DNA from: Rhizobium brockwellii
Lineage (GTDB): Bacteria > Pseudomonadota > Alphaproteobacteria > Rhizobiales > Rhizobiaceae
Assembly: GCF_000769405.2 (NCBI RefSeq)
Contig: NZ_CP053439.1
Coordinates: 2,356,001-2,420,000, forward strand
DNA: 64,000 nucleotides
Reading direction: 5' to 3'
Shown here: piece by piece, positions 4,325 to 46,578 of the stretch
Position numbering within the stretch: the first letter of the stretch is position 1
How the letters are laid out: every line of letters begins with the position of its first letter
Translations under genes and position numbers: made by a program
The notes under the pieces: generated by a model
Database searches by the model: none
The model's input: only the letters and a program-made list of their open reading frames with translations
What the model was told of the DNA's origin: nothing

Positions 4325-6784
4325 TCAATCCGCCGACTGGCAGGAATACAGTTCGTAGAACCGGAACTCCGGAAGCGCGCCACGATCAAGCGGCCGTGCC
4401 GGGGTAAAGGTGATGCGGCGGCTCTCGCCGGCCGCGAGATCGAAGGCATTGTCGGAATATTTGCCGTCCGTCTCGGTCTCGATCATCACGAAGAGCGCAA
4501 GTCCCCTAGCGGTGACGTTGATGTCGACGGAGCCATTCTCCTCGACATATTCGTGGATGACAGCAAGCCCCGCGGGCTCCAGCTCCAGCGCCTTATAGGT
4601 GCCGTTGACGTAATGCCCCTCGCCGCCCGTGCCGTTCGACGCGGTGAAGTGCCAGGCAAGCAGCGTTCCCTCGGGAATATCGGAGACGTCGATGCTCGTC
4701 GCAGTGACGGCCGCATCCGGCGAACACACGGCCTGCACGTCCTTCAGGTGCCGGCGTTCGCCCTTTACCGTCAGGATCGAGACTGCAAGATCAACGCGGA
4801 CATCGGCAAGCGTGTCGTTGACCAGCGAGAAGCGGATCGTCTTTCCGTCATCGGAAGGAATGGCAGCGACCGCGACCGGCTGGAAGAAGCGCTTGACGAG
4901 GTAGTGCATCGCCTTCCAGCGGCCGCCATAATCGAGGCTCGACCAGGATGCGACCGGCCAGGTGTCGTTGAGCTGCCAGTAGATCGTGCCCATGCAATGG
5001 GGTTTGAGCGACCGCCAGTATTCCACCGCTGTCTTGATCGCCAGCCCCTGCTGGATCTGGGAGAGATAGACGAAGTTCGGAAAATCCTTGGGGAAGCGGA
5101 AATAACGGAACATCGTGCCGGCGATGCGCTCGTTGCCGCCGGCATTCTTCTGGTGCAGCTCCATGACGGGGGAAGCGACGTTCATGTCCTTGTCCTCGGC
5201 ATAGGTCCTGATCACAGGCAGGGAGGTATAGGACTGGAAGCCGAATTCCGAGCAGAAGCGTGGACGCACCGAGCGGTAATTGTCGAACGACTTGTTCTCG
5301 TGCCAGACCGACCAGTAATGCATGTCGCCGGATCCGTCAGCATGCCAGGCATCGCCGAAGTCGAGATAGCCGGACGCCGGGCTCGACGGCCACCAGAGCG
5401 CGCCGGGCAGCGCCTTTTTCACCGCCTGCTCGATGGTGCGGTTGAGGCGATCATAGGAGACAAGATAGCGGTCGCGATCCTTTCTCGATTCCTCGAACCA
5501 GGTGAGCGCTCCGACCAGCTCATTGTCGCCGCACCAGAGCACGATCGAGGCATGCGAGGAGAGCCGGCGTACCTGGTAATCGACCTCGATCGTCACATTG
5601 TCGAGAAAGTCCTCGGTCGAGGGGTAGAGGTTGCAGGCGAACATGAAATCCTGCCAGACCATGAGGCCCAGCCGGTCGCAGAGATCGTAGAAATAATCCT
5701 GCTCATAGAAGCCGCCGCCCCAGACGCGGATCATGTTCATGTTGGCGGCTTTGGCCGATAGCAGCAGATCCTCGGTCTTCTCAGGCGAAGACAGCGAAAA
5801 CAGCGCGTCGGCCGGGATCCAGTTGGCGCCGCGGCAGAAGATCTCGCGGCCATTGACCTTGAAAGTGAAGCGGCTGCCTGACGCATCCGGCGTGGTGATC
5901 AGCTCGATAGTGCGAAGACCGATCTGCTTGGTCACCTCATCCGTCGGCAATTCGACGGATAGGCTGTAGAGCGCCTGCTCACCGCTGCCGGAGGGCCACC
6001 AGAGGCGTGGATTGTCGATATGGAAGAGGTGGTTGACATGCGTCTCGCCATTGACGTCGACATCCAGGCGCACGCGCTCGCCGTCGAGCTCGAAATAGAC
6101 CTGGGCAATGTCTGGCCCCTTGGAAAACAGCGTCGCCGTCACTTTGAGATCGACCGAGCCGTCATTATTGTGGGTCTGGCGGGTGACCACATGTTCGATG
6201 CGCGCGGTTTCGAGCTTCTTCAGCGCGATCGTCCCGTAAAGGCCGAGCGGGGCAATGGCGATGTTCCAGTCCCAGCCGAAATGGCATTGTGGCTTGCGCA
6301 GCATGTTGCCGTCGGGGATTGGCGAATTACCGGTGCTGTAGGGAATGTAGAACGGCTGCTGCTTCTGTCGCGCAGCGCCGACGGCGATGTTGGAGGCAAA
6401 GACGATGCGGATGCTGTTGTCGCCTGATTTCAGCATGCTGGAGACATCGGGCCGGTAGCGGCGGAAGCTGTTGTCGGCTTCGAGCGCCAGGAAGCCGTTG
6501 ACGTGGATGCTGGCGACCGTGTCGAGATAGTCGATATCGAGATACCAGTCGCCCTCGACCTCCTGAAGCGTGAAGCTGCGCTCGACCGCCCATTCGCGCT
6601 CGGCGACCCACTGCACCTTTTCCTCATTGCGGCCGAAATAGGGATCGGGGATCAATCCTGCCCGGTGAAGGGCCGTGTGCACGTCGCCCGGCAGCATGAT
6701 CGCGGTGCCGATCTCGCCGTCGACGGAGGCGAGCTGCCACGAACCGGAAAGGTCGATGTTGGGAGTAGTTGATCGATGCGTCAC
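4325..6784 (-). CDS. GH2 family beta-mannosidase
   Basis: 819 residues with the GH2 order: sugar-binding jelly-roll domain (about 1-190), Ig-like domain (about 200-300), catalytic TIM barrel (about 305-600) and a C-terminal beta domain. The acid/base is Glu422 in LWCGDNE and the nucleophile is Glu513 in CSEFGFQS; RVWGGGFYE and MVWQDFMFACNLYP are typical of beta-mannosidases rather than beta-galactosidases. No signal peptide is seen, so it should cleave mannosides in the cytoplasm after ABC import. It is encoded downstream of the importer, separated by a RIME-like repeat, and upstream of the isomerase. Confidence 0.9.
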   Translation of the reverse strand: MTHRSTTPNIDLSGSWQLASVDGEIGTAIMLPGDVHTALHRAGLIPDPYFGRNEEKVQWVAEREWAVERSFTLQEVEGDWYLDIDYLDTVASIHVNGFLALEADNSFRRYRPDVSSMLKSGDNSIRIVFASNIAVGAARQKQQPFYIPYSTGNSPIPDGNMLRKPQCHFGWDWNIAIAPLGLYGTIALKKLETARIEHVVTRQTHNNDGSVDLKVTATLFSKGPDIAQVYFELDGERVRLDVDVNGETHVNHLFHIDNPRLWWPSGSGEQALYSLSVELPTDEVTKQIGLRTIELITTPDASGSRFTFKVNGREIFCRGANWIPADALFSLSSPEKTEDLLLSAKAANMNMIRVWGGGFYEQDYFYDLCDRLGLMVWQDFMFACNLYPSTEDFLDNVTIEVDYQVRRLSSHASIVLWCGDNELVGALTWFEESRKDRDRYLVSYDRLNRTIEQAVKKALPGALWWPSSPASGYLDFGDAWHADGSGDMHYWSVWHENKSFDNYRSVRPRFCSEFGFQSYTSLPVIRTYAEDKDMNVASPVMELHQKNAGGNERIAGTMFRYFRFPKDFPNFVYLSQIQQGLAIKTAVEYWRSLKPHCMGTIYWQLNDTWPVASWSSLDYGGRWKAMHYLVKRFFQPVAVAAIPSDDGKTIRFSLVNDTLADVRVDLAVSILTVKGERRHLKDVQAVCSPDAAVTATSIDVSDIPEGTLLAWHFTASNGTGGEGHYVNGTYKALELEPAGLAVIHEYVEENGSVDINVTARGLALFVMIETETDGKYSDNAFDLAAGESRRITFTPARPLDRGALPEFRFYELYSCQSAD

Positions 6785-6873
6785 GATATCGTTTCCGATT
6801 TATGATTTTGAAAGAGACGGCGTTTGGTCGTCGTCCGGTAGCTGTCGTTCGTCAGGGCTCCTACCGCCCGCCT

Positions 6874-6974
6874 CACTCTCCGTCATCCTCGGGCTTGACC
6901 CGAGGATCCACACCGCATCCACCAGCAGCAACCGGCATGGATCCTCGGCACAAGGCCGAGGATGACGGAGAGTG
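6874..6974. repeat. RIME-like double-hairpin intergenic repeat, copy 2
   Basis: The ends are an 18-19 bp perfect inverted repeat starting CACTCTCCGTCATCC and ending GGATGACGGAGAGTG; inside are two small hairpins, CTCGGGCTTGACCCGAG and CTCGGCACAAGGCCGAG. The right half matches copy 1 at 2261-2332. It sits in the 233-bp gap between the ABC ATPase and beta-mannosidase genes, where a stable RNA structure could protect or terminate part of the transcript. Confidence 0.8.
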
Positions 6975-7017
6975 GGGTAGGCCCTCTCGCCGAATTCGCC
7001 GCCGCCCGCAGAACCTT

Positions 7018-8109
7018 CTAAAGACGCAGCTCGCTTTCGGCATCGAAGACCGAGGCGACCGTCATGTCGAAGCTGAGCTTCACCTTGGCTCCGACGTTGA
7101 AGCGGCGTGCGCCGTTGACACGTACCGACATCGTGTGACCGGCATGTTTCAGCCACAGCAGATTGTCCGCGCCCATCGGCTCCTCGATATCGACGGTGGC
7201 GTCATGTTCTTCGCCGCCGGTATTCTCGTTGACCTTGATGTGTTCTGGACGAACGCCGAGCACCACCTTGCGGCCGGGCTGCAGCGTTTCGCTAGCGTCG
7301 TAGGCAGCGAGCGAGAAAATGACGCCGTTGGCCGAAAAGGCAATGCCGTCGCCTGATTTGACCAGCTCGCCGTGCAGGAAATTCATCGACGGCGAGCCGA
7401 TGAAGCCGGCGACGAACAGATTGCGCGGCCTGTTGTAGATCGTCGTCGGATCGTCGAGCTGCTGGATGATGCCGCTCTTCATGATGGCGATCCGGTCGGC
7501 AAGCGTCAGCGCCTCGATCTGATCATGGGTGACGTAGATCATCGTGTTCTTCAGCGACTGGTGCAGCCGCTTGATCTCGACACGCAGCTCCGAGCGGAGT
7601 TTGGCGTCGAGGTTGGATAGCGGCTCATCGAACAGGAAGACGTCGACGTCGCGCACCAGTGCCCGGCCGATCGCCACGCGCTGGCGTTGGCCACCGGAGA
7701 GCTCGGCCGGCTTGCGCTTCAGGAGCGGCTGAATCTGCAGGATTTCGGAGGCACGCGCCACCCGCTTGTCGATCTCTGCCTGCGGCACCTTAGCGACGCG
7801 AAGACCGAAGGACAGGTTCTTCTCGACGGTCATCTGCGGATAGAGCGCATAGGACTGGAACACCATGCCGATGCCGCGGTCCTTCGGCTCTTCCCAGGTA
7901 ACATTCTTGCCCTTGATGAAGATCTGCCCTTCCGAGGCATCGAGCAGGCCGGCGATGCAATTTAGCAAGGTCGACTTGCCGCAACCGGACGAGCCGAGCA
8001 GCACGAGGAATTCGCCGTCATTGATGTCGAGGTTGAGATCCTTCAGCACGCTCACCGCGCCGAAGTTCAGCGACAGATCCTTGATGGAGACGCTTGCATT
8101 CATATTCAT
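7018..8109 (-). CDS. ABC transporter ATP-binding subunit, MalK/UgpC type
   Basis: 363 residues, as expected for the sugar-importer ATPase (CUT1) with a C-terminal TOBE/OB regulatory region. Walker A is GSSGCGKST (39-47), the Q-loop is at GMVFQSYALYP, the signature is LSGGQ (137-141), Walker B ends in FLFDEP (Asp161, Glu162) and the switch His is 195. AAGGG lies 8 nt before the ATG at 8109, and the gene begins 4 nt after the second permease gene. It energises import by the two permeases encoded just upstream. Confidence 0.93.
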   Translation of the reverse strand: MNMNASVSIKDLSLNFGAVSVLKDLNLDINDGEFLVLLGSSGCGKSTLLNCIAGLLDASEGQIFIKGKNVTWEEPKDRGIGMVFQSYALYPQMTVEKNLSFGLRVAKVPQAEIDKRVARASEILQIQPLLKRKPAELSGGQRQRVAIGRALVRDVDVFLFDEPLSNLDAKLRSELRVEIKRLHQSLKNTMIYVTHDQIEALTLADRIAIMKSGIIQQLDDPTTIYNRPRNLFVAGFIGSPSMNFLHGELVKSGDGIAFSANGVIFSLAAYDASETLQPGRKVVLGVRPEHIKVNENTGGEEHDATVDIEEPMGADNLLWLKHAGHTMSVRVNGARRFNVGAKVKLSFDMTVASVFDAESELRL

Positions 8110-42384: not shown

Positions 42385-45300
42385 TCACCTCATTCTGTTG
42401 TTTGCAGCCAGGTCGAACCGGGCCGAATTGCTGCGCGGCGTCCAGAGGCTGCGCTCGATCGCTTCGCACAGACGCTCTCTCATCTCGTCGAATGCCGCCG
42501 GGTTCTTCTCGATCATGAAATCGCGCACGGCGGGATCGGCGACGAAGGCCTGGTAGACGGCCTCGAAGTGATGTTCGCCGACCGCCCCTGTCGTCGCCGA
42601 AAAGGCAAAGAGATAGTCGACGGTGGCGGCGATCTCGGCCGCCCCCTTATAGCCGTGGCGCATGACGCCTGCGATCCATTTCGGATTGACGACGCGACCT
42701 CGCACGACGCGGCCGATCTCCTCCTCCAGCGAGCGGATCACCGGCCGCTCCGGCCTGGAATGGTCGTTGTGATAGATCGAAGGCCGTGCGCCGGTGAGCT
42801 GTTCTGCGGCGGCGGCCATGCCGCCCTCGAACTGGTAATAATCGTCGCTGTCGAGCAGGTCGTGCTCACGATTGTCCTGGTTCTGAATGACGGCTTGCAC
42901 CGAGCGCAGCCGTTCTTCGAACAGGCCGCGTTCGGCCTTGCCCTCCTCACCGGCGCCATAGGCATAGCTGCCCCAAACGAGATAGGCCTCGGCGAGATCG
43001 GCGCGCCGTTCCCAACCCTTCTCGTCGATCAGCGCCTGCAATCCGGCGCCGTAAGCGCCGGGTTTCGAGCCGAACACACGGTAGCCTGCCCGCCGTTTAG
43101 CCGACACCTCGTCGAGGCCGGCGGCCGCAAGCCTAGCCGCCTCGCCGCGCATCCGCACAGCGATGGGATTGTCGTCGGCATCCTCCTCCAGCGCGCCGAC
43201 GGCGCGGATCGCCTTGTCGAACAGCGCGATCTGCTCGGGAAAAGCATCGCGAAAGAAGCCGGAGATCCTGAGCGTCACGTCGACGCGCGGCCGTCGCAAC
43301 ATCGCCGGCGCAATGATCTCGTAGCCGGTGACGCGTCGTGAACTCATGTCCCAGAGCGGCTTGACGCCGATCAGCGCCAGCGCCTGGGCGATATCGTCGC
43401 CGCCGGTGCGCATGTTCGACGTGCCCCACGCCGTCAGCCCGAAGGAGACAGGCCATTCGCCGTGATCCTGCACATAGCGGCGTACCAGCAACTCCGCCGA
43501 TTTCTTGCCAAGCTCGTAGGCCGCCGGGGTCGGCACGGCGCGGCTGTCGACCGAGTAGAAATTGCGACCCGTCGGCAGCACATCAGGCCGCCCGCGCGTC
43601 GGCGCGCCCGAGGGTCCGGGCGCCACGAACCGGCCGTCGAGCCCTTTGAGCAGGCCGGCGATTTCGGCCGGGCCGCAGGCGAGAATGGAAGGTTTGAGGC
43701 GGGTTTCGATCTCGGAGAGTACCAACCCGGTTTGAGACCAGAGGGCCGGGCACTCTATCTCGCCGGAGACGAACTTTGAGGCGAGCAGTTCGATACGCTC
43801 GACGGTGTCTCCGTTGGTTCGCCATGGGGCGTCAAGAATATCTGCGAGGATATCTGGACGTGGGCCGGTCCAGGGAGCGGCCATTTCGGTGTTGAGAGGG
43901 TCGAAGATGGAGGCACCCCCCTCTGCCCTGCCGGACATCTCCCCCACAAGGGCGGAGATCGGCAAGTCTCTTGGGTTTCCCGAAAAAGAACCGTTTGAAG
44001 ATGCCGCACCTTCGACACATGAGATTAAGCGAGGCCTCTCATCCCCGATCTCCCCCCTTGTGGGGGAGATGTCTGGCAGGGCAGAGGGGGGTATCCCCCG
44101 CATGCCGCCGCCCAAGCCCGCATCCGCCGCAATCGCCCGCTGCAAACTCGCATCCCCACCCTCACCCAGCCCACGCGGCACCCGCGCCAGCGCTACGGTC
44201 AGGTCGGTCAGCAGCCGCCCCTCGGGCGACACACCGAAGACATGCAGCCCGTCGCGGATCTGCATTTCCTTGAGGTCGCAGAGATAGGCGTCGAGCTTCT
44301 TCAGCGCCTCGCCTTCGCTTTCGCCCTTGGCAATCCCGGCATCCCGGTCGAGGCCGATATCGGCAACGAGCTCGAGGATCTGCCGGCTGAGCAGACGAAT
44401 GCGGCGGGGATCGCCGCCCGACGCCTCGTAATATTCGTCGACCAGCGCCTCCAGATCCTTCAGCGGCCCATAGCTTTCTGCTCGCGTCAGAGGCGGCGTC
44501 AGGTGGTCGATGATGACGGCCGCACTTCGGCGCTTGGCCTGCGTGCCCTCACCCGGATCGTTGACGATGAAAGGATAGAGATGCGGCAGCGGCCCCAGGA
44601 TCGCCTCGGGATAACAGCTTTCAGACAGCGCCAGCGCCTTGCCGGGCAGCCATTCGAGATTGCCATGCTTGCCCATATGGATGACGGCATGAGCGCCGAA
44701 TTTCACGCGCAGGAAAGCATAGAAGGCGAGATAACCGTGCGGCGGCACGAGATCCGGCGAATGGTAGCTCTCCTTCGGATCGATATTGAAGCCGCGCGCC
44801 GGCTGGATGCCGACGAGGACCTCGCCGAAACGGGCGAAAGGCAGGGCGAAGATGCCTTCGCGAAAATACGGATCATCTTCGGGATCGCCCCAGCGGGCTC
44901 TCACCTCATCCTGAATCTTGTTGGGAAGAGATTCCAGGAAGCTGTTGTACAGACTCAGGGAAAGCGTCTCGCGGATGATCTTTCCCTCGGAACCGGAATT
45001 GGTCGGCCCTTCCATCAGATGGCGGATCAGCGCATCGCCGTCGGCGGGAATCTCGGCGACCGGATACTCCGCCGATCGCATGGCGCGAAGCACCTCGACG
45101 GTGCCTTCAGGCGTATCCAAGCCGACGCCGTTTCCGAGCCGGCCATCGCGGTTCGGATAGTTCGCCATGACGAGCGCGATGCGCCGGTCGCCGGCGGAAG
45201 TCTTCCGCAGCCGCGCCCAATTGGCGGCAAGCTCCGCCGTATAGCGCACCCGGCCGGCATCGGCCTGGCTGGCGACGATATTCGTCTCGACCAGCGCATC

Positions 45301-46578
45301 GTACCGTGCCGCCGTCTTGAAGGAGACCGCCCGCGCCAGCACCCGGCCATCGACTTCAGGCAGTGCCACGTTCATGCCGAGATCGCGCGCCGACAAGCCC
45401 TGCGAGGAAGCTGCCCATGCCTCCCTGGACGAGGCCGACAGGATCGCCTGCAGCACGATCGCCTCATTCGCCTCCAGCACCGTCGGCTGCCGGTCCGCAC
45501 CCGGTGCCGAGACCGCAAAGCCGGTCGTGTTGATGACGACATCGGGTTTCAGCGTCGAAAACACGCTTTCGAGAATGCCTGTGGAAACCGGATCCTTGAG
45601 GCTATAGGCAAAGACCGGCAGCGGGCGGAGGCCGAGTGTCATCAGCGCTTCGATCAGAGCTTCGATCGGCCCGGTCTCGCCGCTTTGGACGAGGGCGCGG
45701 TAGAAGCTAATGGCGACGATGGGGCGAGATGTGGGTTCGAATTCCACCTCTTCCGTCGAACCTGAGGTACCCCCCTCTGTCCTGCCGGACATCTCCCCCA
45801 CAAGGGGGGAGATCAGGGATGATAGGTCTCGTTCCATCTCCCCAGCCGAAGGTGCTGCATCTTCAAACGGTTCTTTTATGGGAAGCCCTGGCAACTTGCC
45901 AATCTCCCCCCTTGTGGGGGAGATGTCCGGCAGGACAGAGGGGGGTATCTCGATCTCTGCGGATAAGGCGGGCACCACACCCAAAGACACCTCCGCAACA
46001 ACCCGCAGCCACTCCTCGACCCCGATCAACCCCCGCCCCGGCCACCAAATACCCGCCTTCATCAAAGGCACAGCCGCCGCCGGCTTCTCCGCGCCAGACA
46101 ACATCGCCTCGGCATAATCGAGAAAGGCCCGCGCATTGGCATCGCCGCCCTCGATCAGATAGGCCCAGAGCGCGTTGAGATCGTCGAGGTCAATATTGGA
46201 GAAAGGCACCAGCCCCGCATCAGGCCTGGCGTCACCCGGTAGCACCGCGATCAGCGCACCTGAACGCGCCGCCGCCGCATGCAGCGCTTCCAGCGCGTAG
46301 TGGAAATAGCTGGCGCCGCCGAGCGCACGCACGATGATCAGCTTCGCATGCCGCGCCGTGCGCTCGACATAGGTATCAACAGACATCGGATGCTTCAGGC
46401 TCATCAGGCTGGCGAGCCGGAGCGAAGGCCCCGCCCCGCGATCGCGATGGGCGGCGGCGATCGCTACAAGCTCGCTGTCGGCCGCCGACAGGAACAGGAT
46501 ATCGCCCGGCGTCTGCCCGAGGTCGATTGCCTCCTCGCCGTCGCTGATCGTTCCCTGCTGGGCCAGAAGCAGATGCAT
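42385..46578 (-). CDS. cobN: Cobaltochelatase large subunit CobN with two in-frame repeat insertions
   Basis: 1397 residues, about 120 longer than the usual 1270-1280. CobN/magnesium-chelatase H motifs are intact along the chain (for example DVVINTTGFAVS, MGKHGNLEWLPGKALALSE, WGTSNMRTGGDDIAQAL). The extra length is two 60-residue segments at about 211-270 and 829-888, both made by a palindromic repeat (45769-45946 and 43915-44092) and both rich in Pro, Gly and Ser (start PPSxLPDISPTRGEI, end LVGEMSGRxEGG). They fall in linker regions. With CobS and CobT (not in this window) it inserts cobalt into hydrogenobyrinic acid diamide. It is 4 bp after cobW. Confidence 0.95.
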   Translation of the reverse strand: MHLLLAQQGTISDGEEAIDLGQTPGDILFLSAADSELVAIAAAHRDRGAGPSLRLASLMSLKHPMSVDTYVERTARHAKLIIVRALGGASYFHYALEALHAAAARSGALIAVLPGDARPDAGLVPFSNIDLDDLNALWAYLIEGGDANARAFLDYAEAMLSGAEKPAAAVPLMKAGIWWPGRGLIGVEEWLRVVAEVSLGVVPALSAEIEIPPSVLPDISPTRGEIGKLPGLPIKEPFEDAAPSAGEMERDLSSLISPLVGEMSGRTEGGTSGSTEEVEFEPTSRPIVAISFYRALVQSGETGPIEALIEALMTLGLRPLPVFAYSLKDPVSTGILESVFSTLKPDVVINTTGFAVSAPGADRQPTVLEANEAIVLQAILSASSREAWAASSQGLSARDLGMNVALPEVDGRVLARAVSFKTAARYDALVETNIVASQADAGRVRYTAELAANWARLRKTSAGDRRIALVMANYPNRDGRLGNGVGLDTPEGTVEVLRAMRSAEYPVAEIPADGDALIRHLMEGPTNSGSEGKIIRETLSLSLYNSFLESLPNKIQDEVRARWGDPEDDPYFREGIFALPFARFGEVLVGIQPARGFNIDPKESYHSPDLVPPHGYLAFYAFLRVKFGAHAVIHMGKHGNLEWLPGKALALSESCYPEAILGPLPHLYPFIVNDPGEGTQAKRRSAAVIIDHLTPPLTRAESYGPLKDLEALVDEYYEASGGDPRRIRLLSRQILELVADIGLDRDAGIAKGESEGEALKKLDAYLCDLKEMQIRDGLHVFGVSPEGRLLTDLTVALARVPRGLGEGGDASLQRAIAADAGLGGGMRGIPPSALPDISPTRGEIGDERPRLISCVEGAASSNGSFSGNPRDLPISALVGEMSGRAEGGASIFDPLNTEMAAPWTGPRPDILADILDAPWRTNGDTVERIELLASKFVSGEIECPALWSQTGLVLSEIETRLKPSILACGPAEIAGLLKGLDGRFVAPGPSGAPTRGRPDVLPTGRNFYSVDSRAVPTPAAYELGKKSAELLVRRYVQDHGEWPVSFGLTAWGTSNMRTGGDDIAQALALIGVKPLWDMSSRRVTGYEIIAPAMLRRPRVDVTLRISGFFRDAFPEQIALFDKAIRAVGALEEDADDNPIAVRMRGEAARLAAAGLDEVSAKRRAGYRVFGSKPGAYGAGLQALIDEKGWERRADLAEAYLVWGSYAYGAGEEGKAERGLFEERLRSVQAVIQNQDNREHDLLDSDDYYQFEGGMAAAAEQLTGARPSIYHNDHSRPERPVIRSLEEEIGRVVRGRVVNPKWIAGVMRHGYKGAAEIAATVDYLFAFSATTGAVGEHHFEAVYQAFVADPAVRDFMIEKNPAAFDEMRERLCEAIERSLWTPRSNSARFDLAANNRMR
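43915..44092. repeat. 178-bp palindromic element inserted in cobN, copy A
   Basis: Ends are long inverted repeats starting ACCCCCCTCTGCCCTGCCGG and ending the complement; each arm contains its own hairpin CTCCCCC-ACAA-GGGCGGAG or GGGGGAG. The unique centre carries AAGAACCGTTTGAAGATG. Flanked by CA and TA, consistent with a duplicated TA (one mutated). Same length as copy B and nearly identical to its reverse complement, so the two copies lie in opposite orientations. Open in the cobN frame throughout. Confidence 0.92.
45769..45946. repeat. 178-bp palindromic element inserted in cobN, copy B
   Basis: Begins ACCCCCCTCTGTCCTGCCGG and ends with its complement; flanked on both sides by TA. The centre has CATCTTCAAACGGTTCTTTT, the reverse complement of the centre of copy A. 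With one TA duplicated the insertion is 180 bp, 60 codons, leaving cobN in frame. Confidence 0.92.

Follow-up and report, generated by a model that had tools for sequence, protein, structure and literature searches.

The two extra segments of CobN encoded in the window, that is, in the whole 64,000-nucleotide stretch of Rhizobium brockwellii DNA analysed here, are very probably mobile palindromes that the protein tolerates as translated linkers and that work like the palindromic elements of Rickettsia. The initial annotation had proposed such a rhizobial parallel, and the proposal is borne out by the many copies of the element, by a solved CobN (9uk9) that lacks both segments, and by further copies in RibD, CobG and FtsY. 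The two palindromes are real and lie in opposite orientations within the minus-strand open reading frame 42385-46578, whose parts are as follows.

42385..46578, minus strand: cobN, aerobic cobaltochelatase subunit, 1397 codons, from the list of open reading frames and the match to solved CobN 9uk9, which is broken at both elements
45768..45947, minus strand: copy B, N-side site, residues 211-270, 180 bp from TA to TA inclusive
45768-45769, 45770-45945 and 45946-45947: ends of copy B, reading TA, C6...G6 and TA
45770..45815, no strand: copy B arm with two small hairpins, GTCC-TGCC-GGAC and ATCTCCCCC-ACAA-GGGGGGAGAT
45816..45899, no strand: copy B middle part, fast evolving in the family
45900..45945, no strand: copy B opposite arm
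43914..44093, minus strand: copy A, C-side site, residues 829-888, 180 bp from CA to TA inclusive, inverted relative to copy B
43914-43915, 43916-44091 and 44092-44093: ends of copy A, reading CA, C6...G6 and TA
43916..43961, no strand: copy A arm
43962..44045, no strand: copy A middle part, fast evolving in the family
44046..44091, no strand: copy A opposite arm

Each element is an inverted repeat of 176 bp from its first C to its last G, with a middle of about 84 nt between two arms of about 46 nt, and the gene remains a single open frame of 1397 codons. As had been described, the copies are nearly reverse complements of each other (86% over 189 nt), frames of either strand traverse both of them without a stop, and the flanks read TA, with CA on one side of copy A, at the four positions given above. 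The elements had been given a length of 178 bp, which a 2-bp duplication would bring to 180 bp; the interior between the flanking TAs is 176 bp, so neither this length nor the sum holds, whereas the predicted addition of 60 codons per element does (residues 211-270 and 829-888). A difference of 180 bp was also measured between filled and element-less alleles of the C-side site (L098 compared with L103 and L104). At the first place the solved CobN 9uk9 has 11 residues, and at the second it has none. When compared with dinucleotide shuffles, the fold of copy B gave z-scores of -13.3 as DNA and -13.8 as RNA and that of copy A gave -11.1 as RNA, with none of 200 shuffles as good in either copy. 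The window contains seven matches to the inner arm hairpin motif, at four places, whereas 100 shuffles gave none. In being short, with terminal inverted repeats and no gene inside, the elements resemble a MITE, and as a palindrome of about 100-200 bp in many copies they also match the kind known from Rickettsia.

The initial annotation expected more copies in rhizobial genomes, and many were found, both in the genome of the window and in related ones. We refer to the family of the two cobN elements as F1. In the window genome it gave 47 blast matches, which were merged by eye into about 19 places; besides the two copies in cobN, a half element lies in the N-terminal region of FtsY, and the remaining copies, for which no frame has a recognised protein on both sides, were taken as intergenic. 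All 47 matches fall on one contig of 4.8 Mb (C1) and none on the other six; unlike those six contigs, plasmids of related strains do carry F1 copies. At the peptide level, matches with E <= 1e-5 were present in 34 of the 60 Rhizobium genomes searched, and with E <= 1e-6 across the order in at least 5 of 199 genomes and at least 2 of 99 genera. A single-contig genome from another genus of the family (G254) has at least 40 places, 40 of its 120 candidates having been scored, and 178 plasmid records, chiefly of Rhizobium and Sinorhizobium, were matched by DNA. An Rfam search with the element returned only matches far below the gathering scores and none above chance. At one intergenic place (L003:1501-1679, with the relatives L410-L427) four relatives have F1, some others have a shortened F1 or different repeats, and the remainder have short or unrelated sequence, so that repeated occupation is seen outside genes too.

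We then turn to CobN across Rhizobium, where the protein was found in all 120 genomes. The loci of ten genomes were absent from our set, and among the 110 loci read, 100 had an open cobN frame of more than 1240 residues; of the other ten, left out of the 100-row tree, three run off the ends of contigs, one lacks a large internal segment and six are frameshifted. In the alignment of these 100 proteins the only gapped stretches (at least four columns filled in fewer than 93% of rows) are the C terminus and two linkers, reference residues 198-283 and 821-889, where the elements sit. At least one recognisable repeat occupies these linkers in 74 of the 100 loci. The C-side site was labelled F1 in 20, F2 in 20, F4 in 19, F3 in 7, F1b in 4 and none in 30, and the N-side site F1 in 25, F3 in 7, F5 in 6, F1b in 3 and none in 59, where 'none' includes an F4 variant (L089) and remnants (e.g. 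L133, L106). Each family has its own peptide: SPTPPHKGEG..HLWGGVGEG for F2, LLPSGEK..SSDPSGHLLPAGEKG for F3, SPPQGG..VGEMSAKLTEGG for F4 and PSPRGEKG for F5, the last being the least pronounced palindrome, with z-scores of -3.5 and -5.9 relative to mononucleotide shuffles. F1, F1b and F4 have common ends, F3 is related to F5, and F2 is like neither group; between the three groups there was no blastn match at E 1e-4. By these comparisons, three unrelated groups of palindromes occupy the same two CobN linkers, which is wider than the single mobile element first proposed.

Turnover at the two sites is extensive. On a CobN tree built without the inserts, the family label changes at least 36 times at the C-side and at least 30 times at the N-side site, and part of this may reflect exchange of alleles between species or mislabelled remnants. 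Like inserts are present in named cobN of Sinorhizobium, Ensifer, Agrobacterium, Ciceribacter, Phyllobacterium and Shinella, and the cobN of Rhizobium johnstonii 3841 (L155, NC_008380.1) has an insert at each of the two sites. At the C-side site of three Ciceribacter and Agrobacterium loci (L166, L169, L178) the insert looks hybrid, with an F2 left end and an F1-like right end, as if two neighbouring elements had been fused by an in-frame deletion. A smaller, GGGTCGAGCCACGGGTCTCGACCCGTCCTTCGGACC-like module is nested in F1 copies of cobN and ribD with the frame mostly intact (L043, L050, L312, L319, L332, L334, L359, L360), and within some F3 copies it seems to be read in a different frame. 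One cobN (L109, genome G084) is only 775 codons long and lacks an internal stretch of about 500 residues that reaches to the C-side site, either by deletion or through an assembly error.

Other genes are hosts as well. A survey of the genus led to RibD, whose RibD_C domain is interrupted by the element: in 46 of 120 genomes the match continued across the insert with no stop, the presence of a full element not being certain in each, and 29 two-arm elements were read. The 52 ribD loci that were read carry full elements, shortened elements or end remnants only; genome G039, for instance, carries the element, and the window genome has kept a remnant of one end. Since element-less ribD of this clade often retains end remnants, the in-frame record may largely reflect long residence and in-frame decay and not many insertions. 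CobG and a third place in a divergent CobN hold in-frame elements in three genomes of one other genus. In FtsY, in-frame copies were seen in three genomes (F1 in G022, the F1 half element in the window genome and F4 in G057), always behind the conserved N terminus MAxxFIKKVFTF, and because the residues before the insert are conserved in all three we retained FtsY as a host. The suggestion that the palindrome enters coding DNA thus extends to cobN, ribD, cobG and ftsY, unrelated genes that it enters in frame and without stops. Long open reading frames (up to 965 aa) that run across other copies matched nothing in Pfam or NCBIfam and were dismissed as spurious; those of a DNA ligase and a lytic transglycosylase, with the repeat only before the domain and perhaps upstream of the true start, were not counted.

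The length of the copies bears on whether they are translated. Among two-arm copies in cobN, ribD and ftsY, 92 of 95 fall in the length class 2 mod 3, which preserves the frame, compared with 2 of 10 intergenic two-arm copies of the window genome, which are spread 5, 3 and 2 over the three length classes (Fisher p 2.5e-8, a value that is too small as the sequences are related). These ten copies, picked by DNA similarity regardless of frame, are the ones with both arms recognised from the roughly 16 places outside the three in-gene ones, and only one of their 20 orientations would pass without a stop or a shift. The difference argues that ribosomes read the segment. Frameshifted copies count against this reading: six of the 110 Rhizobium cobN loci read (L050, L099, L108, L117, L119, L128) and the named locus L161 show single-base changes within or next to C/G runs of the repeats, the F3 case L117 being less sure, and L108 and L128 are shifted a second time, in the core of the gene. 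All six Rhizobium loci come from assemblies of 2-8 contigs, which makes sequencing error possible; the C/G runs may be either places of such error or hot spots of slippage.

Codon comparisons of close pairs (183 for ribD, 35 for the N-side and 13 for the C-side of cobN, the pairs being non-independent) separated the middle from the arms. In the middle, pN/pS was 0.76 for ribD, 0.82 for the N-side and 0.89 for the C-side, values that rest on alignments of fast-diverging sequence, against 0.17, 0.17 and 0.10 in the respective flanks. The pS of the arms was 0.12, 0.056 and 0.049 in the same order, against 0.295, 0.272 and 0.305 in the flanks. The middle is thus nearly neutral as protein, whereas in the arms it is the nucleotides that are conserved. 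Compensation is apparent in the small arm hairpin, where the two variable bases form T-A, C-G or G-C in 247 of the 258 arms from coding and other copies (tallied by hand after excluding 5 of 134 elements with poor arms); the exceptions are nine C-A and two of T-G or A-G type. The encoded residues change accordingly in pairs: the cobN left arm reads V..D, A..G or G..A in 80 of 82 cases and the right arm S..T or P..A in 79 of 87, counts drawn from 174 proteins, among which some genomes are represented by both a named and an unnamed copy. In ribD the left arm reads V..D or A..G in 30 of the 37 readable cases and the right arm P..A or S..T in 34 of 36, with at least four switches in the left and at least three in the right arm on the RibD tree.

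Together these data allow other explanations to be weighed. One alternative is that the repeats are maintained for some role of the DNA or RNA hairpins themselves, such as factor binding or mRNA folding, with the coding copies as by-products. We regard it as rather unlikely, though it accounts for arm silent positions being far more conserved than the host gene and for the paired hairpin changes in coding copies. It would also agree with the arms of cobN and ribD being no more alike within than between genomes (11 genomes, permutation p 0.52), so that no homogenisation of the two was seen. Element-less alleles are common, and constraint linked to movement, or recent insertion, would yield the same pattern. 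We consider it improbable that the inserts serve CobN and RibD as linkers or domains under selection for a particular task; the same RibD place is indeed occupied across a clade, but the pN/pS of the middle is near 0.8, its length varies by whole codons, and close relatives have unrelated groups or nothing at the same CobN site.

Removal of the element at the RNA or protein level, as for an intron or intein, would leave a host protein of normal length. The very stable RNA hairpin formed by the element ends and the few frameshifted copies in a gene that ought to be needed could be explained in this way, but neither length class nor stops would then matter, and the bias of in-gene copies towards the frame-keeping class, together with the lack of an Rfam family above chance, makes removal very improbable. 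Ordinary expansion of a low-complexity linker with a palindrome arising by chance would explain nothing but the variability of the linkers; it is contradicted by the homologous copies in intergenic DNA and other genes and by fold z-scores of -11 to -14, and we give it practically no credence.

Our preferred reading is that the cobN segments are copies of F1, a non-autonomous dispersed palindromic repeat of Rhizobiaceae. Its copies are scattered round the chromosome, mostly between genes, and those landing in genes would survive only where a floppy insert is tolerated, the frame is kept and no stop is introduced. The two CobN linkers have carried F1 or another palindrome group in many species, and RibD, CobG, FtsY and the third CobN position have taken F1 or the related F4. 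In translation the element would yield a linker of about 50-60 residues with hardly any constraint on its amino acid sequence, the arms being conserved as hairpins of the nucleic acid, and movement would be driven in trans by an enzyme recognising these arms. We infer that a working protein containing the insert is made, and that the linker is disordered. Good growth of R. leguminosarum 3841 depends on a cobalamin gene cluster carried by plasmid pRL11 (INSeq, PMC5118466); cobN is absent from the text of that paper as available, and for this reason we infer the function of element-bearing CobN. In predicted models of CobN residues 1-1007 and of RibD the inserts appear as coil between ordered elements (block pLDDT about 22-39); the models are of poor quality (mean pLDDT 59 and 51, respectively), and at such low confidence they agree with disordered linkers and prove nothing. 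It is tempting to speculate, as a tentative extension, that in needed rhizobial enzymes the hairpins are kept by selection on the nucleic acid as the encoded peptide drifts freely, and that two linkers of CobN and one of RibD serve as standing docking places in which palindrome groups replace one another over species time.

The ends of the element do not support the view that TA is a 2-bp target duplication. With an interior of 176 bp, one duplicated TA would bring the added length to 178 bp, which would break the frame. Many intergenic copies have a palindrome that extends beyond TA as TGCCGTGTGGCA..TGCCACACGGCA, so that the variable ends (TA or CA..TG) lie inside a longer inverted repeat, and TA is more likely to be part of the element than a duplication. 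The precise empty sites with a single TA that were predicted for related Rhizobium cobN were not found, the candidates being deletion remnants, ambiguous or rearranged. At the intergenic place of one copy of the window genome (C1:472898) the relatives likewise gave no clean empty site; they have other copies, other repeats or rearranged flanks there. Hairpins of the form GTGCCGTG..CACGGCAC, considered as empty targets, had no exact match in the window genome. Among the matches listed for this genome and for G254 (40 of 120 candidates scored in the latter), we saw neither a relative or parent transposon bearing a transposase nor a facing pair of arms at transposon-like spacing.

In-frame palindromes have been described in Rickettsia and some other bacteria (PMC10969869, PMC3733652). 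In the parts of these papers available, the Rickettsia (RPE) and Wolbachia elements resemble ours in being palindromes of about 100-150 bp in several families, in lying in frame in unrelated genes as well as outside genes, and in having a conserved peptide per family. The rhizobial elements differ in that their hosts are free-living with genomes of mostly 6-8 Mb, in that two fixed CobN linkers are filled by different groups in different species, and in that the arms are nucleotide-constrained inside genes. By analogy, then, F1 works like an RPE, being likened by kind from descriptions. Intragenic GTAG/CGTC REP repeats, as far as described in PMC3733652, are also small palindromes in open reading frames of known genes, in some cases with one site shared by two species; those units are 20-40 bp long with a GTAG or CGTC tag, whereas the rhizobial elements are mostly 150-200 bp with CCCCCCTCTG ends, and among 34 copies outside host genes, which end CCCCCCTCTG-like, no such tag was seen. 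The enterobacterial RU-1/2/3 repeats (Delihas, PMC2759123) are MITE-like, 103-168 bp long and read as parts of proteins; they have other hosts, and the portion of that paper seen does not describe family turnover at one site. Within the same order, RIME, the A/B/C palindromes, Sm repeats and Brucella Bru-RS (PMC2573895, PMC2873474, PMC2267715) are dispersed palindromes described, in the sections available, as intergenic; compared by description, F1 may or may not be one of them. A full-text search, weak because subscription journals lie mostly outside it, returned no report of in-frame palindromes in rhizobia.

The literature, in the parts seen, discusses protein-coding palindromes chiefly for Rickettsia and its relatives, whereas the bacteria studied here are free-living and genetically tractable. 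The hosts are enzymes of vitamin B12 and riboflavin synthesis and FtsY, and about a hundred species serve as natural replicates, which allows a direct test of whether selfish DNA can seed new protein segments, of why the same linkers are refilled, and of whether the constraint acts on DNA, RNA or protein. The results also carry a warning that CobN and RibD of many rhizobia include repeat-derived segments. The window itself holds one other long inverted repeat, at 6866-6982 between the open reading frames 4325-6784 and 7018-8109, with arms of 50 nt that are 84% complementary and a spacer of 17 nt, and it contains GTCATCCTCGGGCTTGACCCGAGGATCC.
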